Below are positions 32,002-39,722 of a stretch of DNA of 64,000 nucleotides, one piece after another (within the stretch, counting starts at the first letter, position 1; every line of letters begins with the position of its first letter). The position numbers and the translations under genes were made by a program. This DNA comes from Pseudothermotoga elfii DSM 9442 = NBRC 107921 (GTDB taxonomy: Bacteria; Thermotogota; Thermotogae; Thermotogales; DSM-5069). Under the pieces are notes generated by a model that made no database searches, was not told where the DNA came from, and saw only the letters and a list, made by a program, of their open reading frames with translations. The DNA is taken from the NCBI RefSeq assembly GCF_000504085.1, contig NC_022792.1, positions 186,001 through 250,000 on the forward strand, written 5' to 3'.

Positions 32002-32853
32002 CTAAACATTTGCAAATCCACTTAAAACAAAACCTCTTACATAATAACGCTGGAGGTACAGGAAAATTATCACCATAGGAACTACTTGATAAACGAGGGC
32101 AGTTAAAATTAAGTGCTGTGTTTCAGTTGTTGAAAAAGCAAGTGACAATCTTGAGATACCAACGGGTAAAGTCATAAGTTTTTGAGCTGTTGAAGTTACT
32201 ATAAGTGGCCACAAAAAGGAATTCCACTGACCTATAAAAGTGAGTATTGCCAGGGTTGCGATAGCTGGTTTCAAAAGTGGCAGGATGATAGAAATGTAAA
32301 TTCTGAACTCAGATGCACCATCGAGCCTGGACGAGTCAAGTAATTCATCGGGAATGGTCATTATAAATTGCCTCATGAGAAAAATACCATAACCGCTAAC
32401 AGCAAAAGGTATTATTAATGATAAGTAATTATCCAGCCATCCAAACAATCTCATGAGATAATAAACAGGTATCAAAAATATGAAGACGGGAAACATCATG
32501 GTTGAGAGCACAAAACCAAACAGAATCTTTCTGCCAGCGAACTTCAGCTTTGAAAAAGCATACCCTGATAGTGAACTTGTGATAATAGTTATGAGAGTTA
32601 CTGACCCCGACACAAGGAAGCTATTTTTGTAGTAATTAAATAAAGGTATTCTCCTGAGCACTTCGACATAGTTACCCCATTGAGGTTTTTCGGGAAGCCA
32701 TTTGGGGACATCAGACAAGAGTTCCTGAGGTGTCATTAGTGAAGCGGAAAACATCCAAAAAAATGGTAAGATCATCCAGAAAGCCCCAAATATTATTATG
32801 GCATATCTTACGATTTCCAACAAAATGCAGGTTATCTTCTTTTTTTTACTCAT
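32002..32853 (-). CDS. Carbohydrate ABC importer permease, MalG/UgpE type
   Basis: Inner-membrane permease. Six predicted helices and the EAA loop (DSSRLDGASEFRIYISIILP, about residues 175-195). The frame is open to 32916, but the ATG at 32853 follows AAAGGAT and overlaps the upstream permease stop as ATGAGTAA, giving 283 residues, the usual length. It pairs with the 32846-33742 permease and the binding protein. No ATPase gene is in the operon, so a shared MsmK-like ATPase elsewhere is expected. Confidence 0.92.
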   Translation of the reverse strand: MSKKKKITCILLEIVRYAIIIFGAFWMILPFFWMFSASLMTPQELLSDVPKWLPEKPQWGNYVEVLRRIPLFNYYKNSFLVSGSVTLITIITSSLSGYAFSKLKFAGRKILFGFVLSTMMFPVFIFLIPVYYLMRLFGWLDNYLSLIIPFAVSGYGIFLMRQFIMTIPDELLDSSRLDGASEFRIYISIILPLLKPAIATLAILTFIGQWNSFLWPLIVTSTAQKLMTLPVGISRLSLAFSTTETQHLILTALVYQVVPMVIIFLYLQRYYVRGFVLSGFANV

Positions 32854-33742
32854 ATCCTTTGATTCCTCCACGTTTGAAGATCCACAGAATAACCAGTGTA
32901 AAAGAGAAAATAACACAGAATAATAAGAATGCTCCGGCTGACGCCCTGCCCATTCTCAATGATTGAAAAGCTGTTTCGTAAACATACCAGGAAACAGTCA
33001 TAACACTTTTTGCTGGTGCGTTTCTCCCCATAGTAAATGGAAGATCAAATACTTGCCATGCCCCTATAAATCCTGTTGCAGTGAGAAAAAGCAAAGTGGG
33101 AGAAAGCAGAGGAACTGTTATGTGGAAAAACTGTTTGAAAGGACCAGCGCCGTCAATTTTGGCTGCATCGTAATAATCTTTTGGAATGTTTCTGAGGCCA
33201 GCCGTGATGATCAACATTGAACCACCTATACCCGACCATATGGCTGCGATGATTATTGAGAAAAGAGCAATATCCGGGTCAGTAAGCCAGTAAACAGGTT
33301 TCATCCCAAAAAGACCCAGTATAGAGTTCAACAGTCCGTTGTTTGGTCTGTAAAGATAGCCCCATATAGTGCCTATGGCAACCTGAGGTGTCACAACTGG
33401 CGTAAAATAAATAAATCTCCAGAGTACAGAAAACCTGGCACCATTGATCAGTACAGCTAATATCAGAGCTATGATTATTGTGGCTGAAACTGTAAGTAGT
33501 GCATAAATAAGAGTGTTTCTAAAAACAGAAACAAACATCTCATCATTCAGTAAGTACGAATAATGAGAAAATCCTATCTTTCTTGCATTAGAAAGCGGAA
33601 CCAGCATATTCCATCTTCTTGTTGAAGCTAAAAGCGAAAAAAGGACTGGATATACGAAAAACATTGAATAGAAAATCATTATTGGGGCGAGGAAAAAATA
33701 CCCCACCCCAGAATGCTGTTTAGCAATTTTTCGTCCTTTCAA
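32846..33742 (-). CDS. Carbohydrate ABC importer permease, MalF/UgpA type
   Basis: First permease of the sugar importer, 298 residues, six helices, with the EAA loop YYDAAKIDGAGPFKQFFHIT near residues 197-216. It lies 18 bp after the binding-protein gene and overlaps the next permease by 8 bp. The family is certain; the sugar is unknown but probably a galactoside, given the GH42 enzyme in the operon. Confidence 0.93.
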   Translation of the reverse strand: MKGRKIAKQHSGVGYFFLAPIMIFYSMFFVYPVLFSLLASTRRWNMLVPLSNARKIGFSHYSYLLNDEMFVSVFRNTLIYALLTVSATIIIALILAVLINGARFSVLWRFIYFTPVVTPQVAIGTIWGYLYRPNNGLLNSILGLFGMKPVYWLTDPDIALFSIIIAAIWSGIGGSMLIITAGLRNIPKDYYDAAKIDGAGPFKQFFHITVPLLSPTLLFLTATGFIGAWQVFDLPFTMGRNAPAKSVMTVSWYVYETAFQSLRMGRASAGAFLLFCVIFSFTLVILWIFKRGGIKGYE

Positions 33743-33760: not shown

Positions 33761-35047
33761 TCAATAAAATTCAGAGAGAATCTTGTCGATCTCGAGTTTT
33801 GCATCTTTCAAAGCTTTTTCTGCTGTTTTTCTACCATTCCATGCTTCAATTATTTCCCTCATTAATATAGTTTTGATTTCTTGGCCCTGAGCGACATTGG
33901 GTTCTTGATGAGTGTGCTCGAGTTCTTTAACAAAAATAGAAGTATATAGATCATTCAATTCTGATTGAAAGAAATTAATATCTGCCTTGTTGGGGGGTAT
34001 AGATCCTATATTCTTAGCCATAAGTTCACCCATTCTGGTGTATCCACCAGATTTATCCAAGGTTAGCCATCGAACAAAATCCCATGCCTGTTTTTTGTTT
34101 TTTGAAGCGTTATCAACTGCTATGAACCATGTGTAACCAGCTGTTGCTGGTTTTTTCAAGTATGGAATAGGGGCGACTCCAACAATTTCTTCATACTGAT
34201 CTTTAAATCCAAGTTTTAGAGATGTTTCGTACCAGGTTGCCATAATCATCATGGCTACTTTACCCGCTGGAAAGTTCCATACACTCGCCGCCGGGTCTGT
34301 TCCGCCATTTTTAAAGAGTTTTAATTCTGCTTCGAGGGTTTCTATTGCCTCCTTTGAATCAAGCAGGCACCTGCTGAAATCATCTTCAAACAATTTACCG
34401 TTGTTACTGTAAAGCAATGCTAAATAAGGATGAACCACTGCTGAATCCCAACCAGAAAGGAATGCAAATCCATATTGCGAAATCGTACCGTCTGGGTTTC
34501 TCTTCGTGAGCTTTGGAGCCATTTCCACTAATTCATCCCAGGTTTCAGGGGGATTGGTGAATCCAGCTTCTTTCAACAATTTTTTGTTAAAGACAAGTGC
34601 ATAATTATCGACTTCGATAGGAACACCCCATATTTTGCCATCAATCGTAGCTCCATCGATTGCAGGTCTCACAAAGTCTGATTTTACTTTTTCAACGATA
34701 TCTTTTGGAACTTGATCCAGTATCATGGAATCTGATAACTGAACACCCCAGAGAGAATACAAAATGTAGACATCAGAGATTACCCCAGAAGTATGGCTTA
34801 TAAGAATGCGTTTCAGATACTCATCGAATGGTACTGATTGAATCTCAATTTCGGTATCAGGATTCAATTTCTGATATTCTTCCACATACTGTCTTAATCC
34901 TTTTACCATGATGTTTCCATTTTCATCTTTGATCCCTTCAACTTGGTAATCAGACCAGTGAACTGCAAGAATGATTTTTGTTTTTGCAAAACCGCTTGTG
35001 ATTATCACAAAAATCGAAATCAAAACAATTAACAAAGACTTTTTCAT
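33761..35047 (-). CDS. Sugar-binding protein of ABC importer (family 1 extracellular solute-binding)
   Basis: 428 residues. A cleavable signal peptide (MKKSLLIVLISIFVIITSGFA) is followed by the family 1 fold with VPIEVDNYALVFNKKLLKEAG and FPAGKVAMMIMATWYE. The ribosome site GGAGGGG is well placed. It delivers an oligosaccharide to the two permeases downstream. It lies 26 bp after the GH42 gene, matching binding of a beta-galactoside or similar glycoside, which is inference from context. Confidence 0.93.
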   Translation of the reverse strand: MKKSLLIVLISIFVIITSGFAKTKIILAVHWSDYQVEGIKDENGNIMVKGLRQYVEEYQKLNPDTEIEIQSVPFDEYLKRILISHTSGVISDVYILYSLWGVQLSDSMILDQVPKDIVEKVKSDFVRPAIDGATIDGKIWGVPIEVDNYALVFNKKLLKEAGFTNPPETWDELVEMAPKLTKRNPDGTISQYGFAFLSGWDSAVVHPYLALLYSNNGKLFEDDFSRCLLDSKEAIETLEAELKLFKNGGTDPAASVWNFPAGKVAMMIMATWYETSLKLGFKDQYEEIVGVAPIPYLKKPATAGYTWFIAVDNASKNKKQAWDFVRWLTLDKSGGYTRMGELMAKNIGSIPPNKADINFFQSELNDLYTSIFVKELEHTHQEPNVAQGQEIKTILMREIIEAWNGRKTAEKALKDAKLEIDKILSEFY

Positions 35048-35073: not shown

Positions 35074-37240
35074 TCACTCGATCAACAAAACAACAGTGTG
35101 ATTACCCTGTATGAAGATATTTTTGATTGATAACGCTTTGCTGCATGCTTGATATTCGAATTTTTGATCAGCGTTGATACATTTCACATTGTTTACCAGA
35201 GCGGGTAGATTATTTGAAGGAATCAGAAGATCAAATTCAATTGCTTCGTCCCCATGATTAAATAGAAATACTATTGTTTTTTCCTCAGAACGCGATATTC
35301 TCACTTCAAGATAATCTTCTTGACCAGAAGTAATTGAAGTTGAGTAATCAGGGTTAATGCCTGCTCTCTGTGCAATTTGTTTTAAGAATTCCAGATTGTT
35401 CCTATTTTCTGTTTTTTCATAGGCAAGACCAATGAGCATACCAACCATTATTGCCAGTCCTGAATGATATTTGTTTTCTACAATAACAGGCTGGCCATTA
35501 AAAAATGCTTTTGGAATGCCTGTTGTTTTTCTGTACACAGTTAAGTATCGATAAGCAGAAAGTTTGCAATCTTCATAATCGATAGCCTGTTCTTGGATTT
35601 CCCTTGTATAGAGTTCCTCACAACCAAAAACTTTTTCCAGACCGGATCCTGGGATTTTTTCTTGCAAAGTTCCGTCTTCTTTCATCCATCCAAGACGTCC
35701 ATCTGCCAAAACTACTCCCCCGCTCCTCACATATTTCTCTATCGCATCAGCACTTTTCTGATCTATAACGATGGAAAATGGAATCATAATGAGATGGTAC
35801 TGCTTAAGATCTTCTCTCAATAAGTCCGATATATGCAGAAAATCCACATTAACACCCATTTGCATCATGGCCTTGTACATGCCAAAAATGTCTTCACGTA
35901 TGATCTCCGCACTTTCAGCCCTTAAACAAGCGAGAGTTTTGTGGGTTTCAATGTTATAAAGTATCCCTACCTTAGCTTGCAAAGCTTTTGCTTTTAAGAA
36001 TAAATTCATGTTCTTAGAAATTATTTCGGAGACTTTTCCAGCCCTGATTACCTTGTTGTTGATTGAACCATCATAATTTGCCAGGCCGAATCCCGATACT
36101 TCATAGCCACAGCTCATAGGAAGCCAGGCATAGTAATTTAAACCCTTAGCATCATGGGAGATAGCGAGCCATGACCATCTTTCAACATCGAATTCATCAA
36201 CTGGAACGCTGAATCTCAATCCTGTAACACCGTGACCAGATTGGAGCTCTCCTATCCAAAAAGGTTTATTTTTACTTTCGCAGGAAGATCTGCTTGCATC
36301 AAGTGCAACACCCATGTGGTGCGGTTTTAACGGCATCCATGCGCCTGTGTGCTTCGGATAGAAAGAAGTTCCCCATATATCTACTTTTTCAGATAGTTTC
36401 CAGTCGTCTGATGAACCATATCCGATACCAGGTATTCCATAAACACTTGAGATCGCTGCATGACTTGATACAGGATGTGATGGATCTATTTTTTTTTATC
36501 GCTGAGGTTTTCCAGAAGAGATCTTCGGATATCTTTTCGATGTTGAATTGAATCCAATCAAGAAGATCCCTAAAACTTGATAAAGAGACATATCGAGGTA
36601 TGGTGATTTCTTCCCAGCTTCCATGTTTTCTATACCAGATTTCGTTCAGTTTTTGAACAGTTTCATACTTAGTTTTGAGCCATTCGATAAATCTATTTTT
36701 TGAATATTCGCAGTAACAAAACCAAGGATCTTTGATGTAGTCTATCCATGACCATTGAACAATATGTGGTTCAGACCATATGTCCCATGCTAAAAATGAA
36801 TCGTGCCTTGATACTACTTTTGCAAGATTCTGCAGAAAGCTTGTAATATGTTTTCTTACCTGCGGATGGTCTGAACAGTATCCAGGAGCAGATTGAGAAT
36901 GTATAGTCAGACCGGATCTGTCAATAAAGAGTGAATCTGGATAATCTCTTTCCACCCAGTTTGGTGCTGAGTCTGTGTAAATTTGAAGTATAGCCTTGAT
37001 TTTCAGCTCATCAGTTATGTTAAGTAATTCTTCTATTGATGAAAAATCCCATACATCAGGCTCCGGTTCAGCAGTAGCCCAATCATACCAGAATCTGATA
37101 GTATTAAATCCGATCTTTTTGATTCGAGAAATCTCTGATTTTATCTCTGATAATCCTTTAACTTTTGCAGTCATGGGAGCCCTGGATTTGTTTGGCCCGT
37201 ACCAGACAGATACTGGGAAGAAATCTTTCAAATTCCTCAC
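35074..37240 (-). pseudogene. GH42 beta-galactosidase, frame interrupted at an A9 run
   Basis: Two frames together make one GH42 enzyme of about 722 residues. The upstream frame (36389-37240) carries the first part of the TIM barrel with the acid/base Glu in WDIWSEPH. The downstream frame (35074 to about 36490) carries the rest of the barrel with the nucleophile Glu in WIGELQSG, then the trimerisation and C-terminal beta domains. The break is at nine consecutive A (36489-36497); eight would restore one uninterrupted frame reading AIKKIDPSHPVSS. Neither half holds both catalytic residues. It is a decayed gene, a sequencing error, or a gene expressed through slippage. It overlaps the upstream SIS gene by 4 bp and is otherwise intact. 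Confidence 0.88.
36489..36497 (-). other. A9 homopolymer, frameshift or slippage site
   Basis: Nine T on the plus strand (nine A in the mRNA), exactly where the GH42 frame breaks. Runs of nine or more A are known transcriptional slippage sites in bacteria. One A too many is present relative to the frame that joins both halves. Confidence 0.85.
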
Positions 37241-38016
37241 CTCTCTTGAATTTTCCAGTAGTGCCTGTTTATTGTTTTTTGATGAAAATCGAAAATTTTC
37301 ACGTTATAATCAACATCGAATCCCTCAACATTTGGAGATACAAATATCTTCAAATCTTTTCCGTGATCATGAAGAATAGCTCCAGTTTCTGCTATAAGGC
37401 TCATTGTGATAGCAACGACTGCTACAGTTGAAGAAGCAGCAATACGCTCTTTTTTTCCTGAAAGTTCTATAAGTGCATCTTCTGGCGGAGTGCAGTTATC
37501 AATGATGAGATCCGCTATATCAGAAAGTTTTTTTCCAGAACTGTGAGAAGCTATAGCAGCAACTTGATTACTTACAGAAACAATTGCAATTACTTTTGCC
37601 CCAACTTTTTTTCCGTACAACGCTGCTTCAACAGGAGCTGCATTGATTCCTCCGTGAGAGTAAATAATTAGTACATCGTCTTTGGCAATTGGTTGGTATC
37701 TTAAAAAACCGTTTTCCACATATCCTTCCTTTCTTTCAACAAGTAATAAACCAGGAGCACTTGCTGGACCAGTAGGGCTAAACCACATTAATCTGGGATC
37801 TATCAGTGGATTAAAACCTATAAAACTTCCATATCTTGGAAATGCGTCCAGAACGGGTAGAATTGAGTGCCCACTTCCAAACAGATGTACCATACCATTT
37901 TTTTCAATGCATTCTGCCATAATATTCGCGGCTTTTAAAATGTTGGTATTCTGTTCTTTTTTTATTCTTTTAAGAATGTCCGTCACTTTTTCAATATAAG
38001 CCTCGAATGCCGACAA
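37237..38016 (-). CDS. SIS-domain sugar-phosphate isomerase-like protein (UPF0309 type)
   Basis: 259 residues. The SIS fold has the phosphosugar loop HLFGSGHS near residue 45 and a second SIS-like segment IIYSHGGINAAPVEAALYGK. The layout matches the UPF0309/phosphosugar family more than GlmS or AgaS. It lies 6 bp after the ROK kinase and overlaps GH42 by 4 bp (ATGA). With a ROK kinase upstream it probably handles a phosphorylated sugar released from the imported glycoside. The exact reaction is unknown. Confidence 0.85.
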   Translation of the reverse strand: MSAFEAYIEKVTDILKRIKKEQNTNILKAANIMAECIEKNGMVHLFGSGHSILPVLDAFPRYGSFIGFNPLIDPRLMWFSPTGPASAPGLLLVERKEGYVENGFLRYQPIAKDDVLIIYSHGGINAAPVEAALYGKKVGAKVIAIVSVSNQVAAIASHSSGKKLSDIADLIIDNCTPPEDALIELSGKKERIAASSTVAVVAITMSLIAETGAILHDHGKDLKIFVSPNVEGFDVDYNVKIFDFHQKTINRHYWKIQER

Positions 38017-38022
38017 ATTCTA

Positions 38023-38907
38023 TCACTCCTTTCTCAAAGAGGTATATTTTGAGCAACCTACGAGTTGCGCATCTTCGCCTAAGGAGGAAACTTTTATAAT
38101 GGGAGGAGTAATGAATGGGCTGGTGAATTTTTTCAATGTTTTAACAGCTTCTTCTTCAAAAACTTTCCAGTTCAAACCAACACTTCCTGAGAGAACTATT
38201 ATCTCCGGGTTTAGAATATTTGTAATTGTTGAAAGAAGATATCCCATTGCGAATGAGACATTTTTAACTACCTCAGTTGCACACGTGTTTTTCTGTAGAT
38301 ACAATCTTAAGACAGATTCACTGGATTCTATCTCTTTTCCACATATTCTGGAAAACATCTTTGCTATAGCTGGTCCTGATATTAATGACTCAATATCTCT
38401 GTATTCTTCTGTCAAAGGATCTTTTATATGAATCCATCCTGCTGATCCTGCTATTCCCTGATTCCCAAAAATGATCTGCCCCTGTGAGAAAATACCAAGA
38501 CCAACTCCTGTACCAATTATCAGATATGCCACTTCTTTGAATCCTCTGGCACATCCACTGCATATTTCTCCAATTAGGCCTGCGGTACGGTCATCTATTA
38601 TGTAAATCTGTACATTTGGAATAAAAGAACGTATTGTCTCTTTAAGTTTAATCCTCTGTGGGAACACGTTTGGTATTAAAACACTCCCGTCTTCGAAAAC
38701 AGCTCCAGCTATTGAAAAAATACAATGTGATATTTCAAATTTTTCGTTCATTTTTTCAAATTCCTGTGAAATGTTTTCGAACAGTTTATCCTGCTTTTTT
38801 GGTGTGGAAAATTTTCTTTTGAGATATATTTTGCCGTCTGAATCAACGATAGCTATTCGTAAATTTGTACCTCCGATATCGCAGGCAAAGCTGTACACAG
38901 TTTTCAC
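38023..38907 (-). CDS. ROK-family sugar kinase
   Basis: 294 residues. The N-terminal phosphate loop is FACDIGGTNLRIAIVD, the catalytic region GTGVGLGIFSQGQI, followed by GIAGSAGWIHI. The zinc-binding CxCGxxGCxE motif found in many ROK kinases is absent; that position reads IKDPLTEEYRDIESL, so it belongs to the zinc-less subset. It overlaps the gntR stop by 4 bp. No DNA-binding domain, so a kinase and not a repressor. The sugar is not determined. Confidence 0.88.
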   Translation of the reverse strand: MKTVYSFACDIGGTNLRIAIVDSDGKIYLKRKFSTPKKQDKLFENISQEFEKMNEKFEISHCIFSIAGAVFEDGSVLIPNVFPQRIKLKETIRSFIPNVQIYIIDDRTAGLIGEICSGCARGFKEVAYLIIGTGVGLGIFSQGQIIFGNQGIAGSAGWIHIKDPLTEEYRDIESLISGPAIAKMFSRICGKEIESSESVLRLYLQKNTCATEVVKNVSFAMGYLLSTITNILNPEIIVLSGSVGLNWKVFEEEAVKTLKKFTSPFITPPIIKVSSLGEDAQLVGCSKYTSLRKE

Positions 38908-39635
38908 TTCCTCAACTGTACCTGTACCGAATATCTATCACTTCTTATTATTGATTCTGTATATTCAATGGGAGTATTATTTGTGTCGTATGCAACTCTT
39001 TCGACTATGAAACCGGCAAATGGCCACTTCGCTTTGAGTAGTTTGCACTCGTATTTATCAAGTATGGTTGCATAATATTTTTCCTGAGCAGAGGAAATTT
39101 TGATTCCGTACTTGAGTTCGAGCAATTTGTATAAAGATTGTGTTAAATCATTCTCCAGAAAATCCGGGGCGATGTACTCAGGCGTGTAAAATGTTTGTAT
39201 CCCGAATGGATCACCATTAGCAAGTCTTAAACGTCTGACCATAATAACTTTTGAACCCGTTTCAAGTTTCAAGGCTTCAGAGATTTTCTCATCTGCTTCT
39301 CTTATACCTTTTTCTAAAATAACAGAGGTTGGATTGAATCCCATGGATATCATTTCTTCTGTAAAGCTGGTGAGTTTTCTTGGTCCCTGACGTATCCTGG
39401 CATCTACTACAAATGTGCCTTTACCCTGCCTTTTTATGAGAAACCCTTCTTCCACAAGTAAAGAAACAGCCTGTCTCACAACAGCAGTGCTGACACCAAA
39501 CATTTTAGAAAGTTGCTTTTCTGTTGGAATCTTTTCACCAGATTTCCAGGTTTCAGATAATATGTTTTTTCTAAGAATTTCTTTAAGCTGATAGTATAAG
39601 GGTTCTGTTGAATATGGATCTATCTTTTGAATCAT
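38904..39635 (-). CDS. GntR-family (HutC type) transcriptional regulator
   Basis: 243 residues. An N-terminal winged helix (YYQLKEILRKNILSETW, then KIPTEKQLSKMFGVSTAVVRQAVSLL) with the GQGTFV wing, then a UTRA ligand-binding domain (PRKLTSFTEEM onward). The frame is open to 39713, but ATG 39635 follows GGAGG by 9 bases and starts MIQKIDPYSTEPLYYQL, as in the family. First gene of the eight-gene sugar operon and probably its autoregulated repressor, binding the palindrome in its own promoter. Confidence 0.93.
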   Translation of the reverse strand: MIQKIDPYSTEPLYYQLKEILRKNILSETWKSGEKIPTEKQLSKMFGVSTAVVRQAVSLLVEEGFLIKRQGKGTFVVDARIRQGPRKLTSFTEEMISMGFNPTSVILEKGIREADEKISEALKLETGSKVIMVRRLRLANGDPFGIQTFYTPEYIAPDFLENDLTQSLYKLLELKYGIKISSAQEKYYATILDKYECKLLKAKWPFAGFIVERVAYDTNNTPIEYTESIIRSDRYSVQVQLRK

Positions 39636-39663
39636 CTCCGTATACCTCCTATTAACTATAATC

Positions 39664-39692
39664 ATTATAATGAATATAATCAATTTTGTCAA
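39664..39692 (-). promoter_or_regulatory. Consensus sigma-A promoter of the sugar operon with overlapping palindromic operator
   Basis: On the minus strand TTGACA (39692-39687), 17 bases, TATAAT (39669-39664): a perfect consensus. The sequence ATTATA-N5-TATAAT (39664-39680) is an inverted repeat covering the -10 and the end of the spacer, a likely GntR operator. TSS expected near 39657, 22 bases before the regulator's start. Confidence 0.85.
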
Positions 39693-39700
39693 GCAATAAA

Positions 39701-39722
39701 AAGGCGACCTCAAGGTCGCCTT
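39701..39722 (-). terminator. Rho-independent terminator of hcp
   Basis: A perfect 9-bp stem AAGGCGACC / GGTCGCCTT with a TCAA loop, followed on the minus strand by TTTTTATT (39700-39693). It lies 18 bp after the hcp stop and directly before the sugar-operon promoter, so it insulates the two. Confidence 0.93.

Follow-up and report, generated by a model that had tools for sequence, protein, structure and literature searches.

An interrupted GH42-like beta-galactosidase gene of Pseudothermotoga elfii: nine A's that point to a recent break or a miscall, not to an evolved switch

Background

In Buchnera and Blochmannia, single-base changes in poly(A) runs have put genes out of frame that are otherwise intact and normally evolving, and rescue of such genes by slippage is possible (PMC3017870 and work cited there). 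The GH42-like gene of Pseudothermotoga elfii described here resembles them in this respect. Those genomes are AT-rich and hold over a hundred coding tracts of nine or more A, whereas the whole P. elfii genome has six runs of nine (A9), and some of their breaks are conserved between species, whereas the GH42 break is found in one species. In tssM of Citrobacter rodentium, a poly-A interruption is likewise present, and RNA polymerase slippage there restores the frame; its run is an A11, with a measured efficiency of about 20-25% and production of both length variants (PMC4256274), whereas the GH42 run is an A9. An A9 is known to slip in Thermus thermophilus dnaX, on the sense strand of a thermophile as in GH42, where transcripts gain one A or several, each longer form being scarcer than the last (PMC1088944, PMC5009743). 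The zero frame of dnaX encodes the full product and its truncated product is functional; in GH42 the zero frame encodes the truncated product, and the run is unconserved. Slippage on A runs in Escherichia coli and Buchnera yields more insertions than deletions.

A Thermotoga PGK-TIM was reportedly described by Schurig in 1995 (cited in PMC4256274). The corresponding pgk/tpi junction of P. elfii carries the same 17-mer, GATAAAAAAAAATAGAT, as the GH42 tract of that genome. The pgk/tpi tract is order-wide and joins two genes, whereas the GH42 tract does neither; P. elfii PGK-TIM requires one additional A (or a -1 ribosomal shift), whereas GH42 requires a change of -1 or +2.

Gene structure and operon

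Coordinates are positions in the window, a stretch of 64,000 nt that spans 186001-250000 of a single-contig genome of 2,169,860 bp; the published P. elfii DSM 9442 genome is AP014507 (PMC10057702). The GH42-like beta-galactosidase gene occupies 35074-37240 on the minus strand and loses its reading frame at an A9, which places the split within the interval (36486-36500) given by the earlier note.

36489..36497, minus strand: A9 run (T9 on the plus strand), the point of frame loss; carries the 17-mer also found at the pgk/tpi junction
36389..37240, minus strand: upstream GH42-like frame, 283 aa as written, with the acid/base Glu in WSEPH
35074..36495, minus strand: downstream GH42-like frame, which supplies the nucleophile Glu (GELQSG) and also encodes the trimerisation domain
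SAIKKIDPSHPVSSH: predicted peptide across the junction of the two frames

The 283-aa product consists of 250 family residues and an out-of-frame, unrelated tail of 33 codons, and lacks the nucleophile. The downstream frame, at +1 relative to the upstream one, is free of stops from 36495 and has its first ATG at 36336. By frame arithmetic, A8 (-1) or A11 (+2) yields a joined frame of 721 or 722 aa, while A7, A9, and A10 lead to truncation at 250-283 aa. The earlier proposal that the halves join only upon loss of one A is thus right about A8 and wrong about "only", since A11 joins them too. Once the frame is joined, E157 (acid/base) and E331 (nucleophile) line up with the catalytic glutamates of the solved GH42 enzyme 9ta3, and the two do lie in different frames, as had been claimed. 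The residue preceding the acid/base is Ser rather than the usual Asn. The GH42 catalytic domain model PF02449 matches the first half at 107 bits and the second half, taken from its first ATG, at 21.1 bits (cut-off 21), and PF08532 matches the split gene at 63.8 bits. The gene has both a domain match above cut-off and both catalytic glutamates, which places it in GH42; no NCBIfam equivalog matched it, and beta-galactosidase activity is a prediction. These two pieces are the sole GH42 match in the genome.

The gene lies in an operon of seven genes in the order GntR-ROK-SIS-GH42-SBP-permease-permease, complete as the earlier note had stated and kept in relatives as well.

39664..39692, minus strand: promoter-like site TTGACA-17-TATAAT, predicted
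38904..39713, minus strand: GntR/UTRA regulator, listed ORF
38023..38907, minus strand: ROK-family sugar kinase
37237..38016, minus strand: SIS-domain sugar isomerase-like protein (Pfam SIS_2, NCBIfam NF002805), conserved beside GH42
33761..35047, minus strand: ABC sugar-binding protein (SBP)
32846..33742, minus strand: ABC permease 1
32002..32916, minus strand: ABC permease 2

The promoter-like site, described before as perfect, matches the consensus at 12 of 12 positions. Because it falls inside the listed ORF of the regulator, and because relatives align from residue 31, the true start of this gene is probably near 39635. The ROK kinase is 46-49% identical to its counterparts in congeners, compared with 71-84% for the neighbouring genes, a divergence that holds in all members of the genus.

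Comparison with homologues

The homologues comprise 88 loci, the eight closest (41-65% identical) and 80 from a contig search, in part from the same organisms. All three congeners are included; no other P. elfii strain (subsp. lettingae) is among the records. In all 88 loci the enzyme is written in one open frame, two of the records ending within the gene, and none of those in which the junction could be located has a run of seven or more A there (one has A6). Relatives use mixed codons at this point, for example ATA AAA GAA ATC GAT CCA, where P. elfii with A8 would read ATA AAA AAA ATA GAT CCA. Since the junction is written with mixed codons elsewhere, the tract is best described as a putative A8 particular to this lineage, which either turned into A9 or was misread as such. 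One mark of a slippage gene, a slip-prone stretch of some nine or more A or T where the frames meet, is present here; conservation of the run and of the break, another such mark, was not found in the 88 loci. The earlier note had offered the gene as a candidate slippage gene and had itself named uninterrupted homologues with a junction poor in A as half of what would speak against this. That half is what the relatives display, and the idea of an evolved device is not supported.

Archaeal bins (Hadesarchaea, Thermoplasmata, and Heimdallarchaeota) also include contigs with relatives of this GH42, which may reflect either transfer or mis-binning. The operon occurs at Thermotogales-like identity (SBP 83%) on a contig assigned to a Desulfonauticus MAG, and this contig is therefore probably mis-binned.

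To date the break, we compared constraint on the gene with that on its neighbours. The P. elfii sequence retains 191 of the 203 columns that are invariant across eight homologues. Its 12 lost invariants exceed the 1-4 lost in congeners; this excess vanishes after scaling to the divergence of neighbouring genes. The terminal branch is long (0.355), as are the branches of those genes, and the ratio of GH42 to SBP branch lengths is 3.1 here and about 3.0-4.0 in five relatives. No second lesion besides the A9 was found in the gene. The view that the halves are otherwise undamaged, and that this argues against long-standing decay, is borne out by these results, and we reject an old, decayed pseudogene given the absence of a second break, the retained invariants, the normal branch ratio, and the lack of relaxed constraint. 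Judged from these alignments, the break is recent on the scale of divergence, or not real, because there is no sign that constraint has relaxed.

Homopolymer runs and assembly quality

No A/T run in the window is longer than the GH42 A9, and no other reaches nine. Genome-wide, six A9 runs occur in 2.17 Mb and none is longer: those in GH42, at the pgk/tpi junction, in metH, and in an ABC permease, and two that are terminator-like or intergenic. The runs in metH and the permease are both in frame. A8 runs number about 255 (267 eight-base placements, twelve of them within A9). Across the genome, the drop from about 255 A8 to six A9 and no A10 is steeper than the drop that the window shows between lengths 6, 7, and 8, a pattern consistent with selection against runs prone to slip.

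Wherever two frames meet near an A/T run of at least seven in the window, the pair was flagged. Pfam scans of most of these pairs revealed ordinary gene boundaries, and the GH42 A9 is the sole break found inside a gene at such runs. Most of thirty sampled A8 loci have no such frame pair, and two that were flagged and scanned look like separate genes. With a genome completeness of 99.96 and no other break in the window or at the sampled A8 loci, we reject a generally poor assembly at homopolymers.

The pgk/tpi junction

The A9 at the pgk/tpi junction is at contig positions 1019105-1019113. Among the relatives searched, 43 Thermotogales genomes, P. elfii included, have a readable junction, and all 43 have a run there (A8 in 1, A9 in 33, A10 in 9). 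The TIM frame relative to PGK is -1 in 34, in frame in 8, and +1 in 1, and both other frames close within eight codons in all 43; a single genome from outside the Thermotogales has a direct pgk-tpi fusion without a tract. The tract is kept irrespective of frame, as expected from RNA polymerase slippage but not from a directional ribosomal shift, suggesting that polymerase slippage at this junction makes both PGK and PGK-TIM. Given this frame-independent conservation, an A9 is likely to be slip-prone in P. elfii, in which case a real GH42 A9 would be leaky. The sharing of the 17-mer is probably convergent rather than meaningful, because both sites code for KKID.

Origin of the break

A real, young indel with leaky rescue, rather than a programmed recoding gene, is our preferred explanation, and we give it an even chance. 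The lineage would have come to write Ile-Lys-Lys-Ile-Asp as ATA AAA AAA ATA GAT, creating A8, and a further A, gained in this species or strain only, would recently have put the single-copy glycosidase gene out of frame. The DNA would now encode mainly the 283-aa fragment without nucleophile. RNA polymerase would slip on the A9, and a minor share of A8 and A11 transcripts would restore the 721/722-aa enzyme, so that we probably have a gene broken very recently and still leaky. Three elements of this account are inferred: the existence of the A9 in living cells, slippage at the run, and inactivity of the fragment. Bacterial RNA polymerase slips on runs of this kind, and some rescue is therefore expected if the A9 is real; it may be negligible, because the -1 and +2 changes needed are less favoured than +1. 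Correct base calling is favoured because the other coding A9 runs are in frame or conserved and no other homopolymer break was found in the window or at the sampled A8 loci.

The choice between a real young indel and a sequencing or assembly error is close. Under the latter, which we hold to be a serious if somewhat less probable alternative, the gene in the cell would have A8 and encode a normal, unbroken enzyme of 721 aa. Homopolymers of this length are a classic site of error, as the earlier note had rightly warned, the two halves, like the operon, appear to be under full constraint, the homologues are all intact, and the gene is the only GH42 of the genome; against error, the calls at the other three coding A9 runs look right, the remaining runs of at least seven A/T in the window show no break, and the completeness is high. 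Reversible phase variation, in which replication slippage would switch the gene on (A8) or off (A9) among the cells of a population, could draw on a homopolymer in a coding region between two intact halves. It is improbable, given about 255 A8 runs in the genome without apparent role of this kind and a GH42 site at which no relative examined keeps a long run. To our knowledge, a cytoplasmic sugar operon is also not a typical place for a contingency gene, which counts against it as well.

Equally improbable is programmed slippage, with A9 selected for a fixed ratio of full-length enzyme to truncated product. The 17-mer identical to the pgk/tpi junction and the A9 precedent of Thermus dnaX point towards it; however, the tract is unconserved in congeners, the truncated product has no nucleophile and ends in the unrelated tail, and the shared flanks are explained by the coding of KKID at both sites. 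Evolved programmed slippage at GH42 is thus not supported by the sequence comparisons. A variant in which P. elfii newly recruited a 17-base A9 site of the pgk/tpi type for a set fraction of enzyme, so that we see a recoding site at its birth, is a similarly long shot. Least probable of all is that ribosomal frameshifting at the run yields the full-length enzyme. A_AAA_AAA is a known slippery heptamer (PMC3711429), but a -1 shift meets an immediate TAG and ends at 251 aa (the A10 case), and +1 would be needed; a -1 programmed ribosomal frameshift was rejected as going in the wrong direction, the downstream frame being at +1.

If the A9 is real, a young indel of this kind offers a natural test, in a free-living thermophile, of the rescue of a fresh poly-A frameshift by polymerase slippage, with the conserved pgk/tpi junction of identical sequence as an internal standard in the same RNA-seq libraries; public RNA-seq of both P. 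elfii strains is available (GSE226101). If it is an error, the entry needs correcting, so that the only GH42 of the genome is not annotated as broken. The GH42 gene was either broken recently or misread in sequencing, and does not look like an evolved switch, although slipping at the identical 17-letter site of the pgk/tpi junction in the same cell appears purposeful. The GH42 gene itself is ordinary, and the comparison with pgk/tpi is the more interesting by-product. At that junction, one Thermotogales genome (1,860,725 bp) encodes PGK-TIM in frame across an A10, whereas its nearest relatives carry A9 there, and the tract length in this entry may be worth rechecking.
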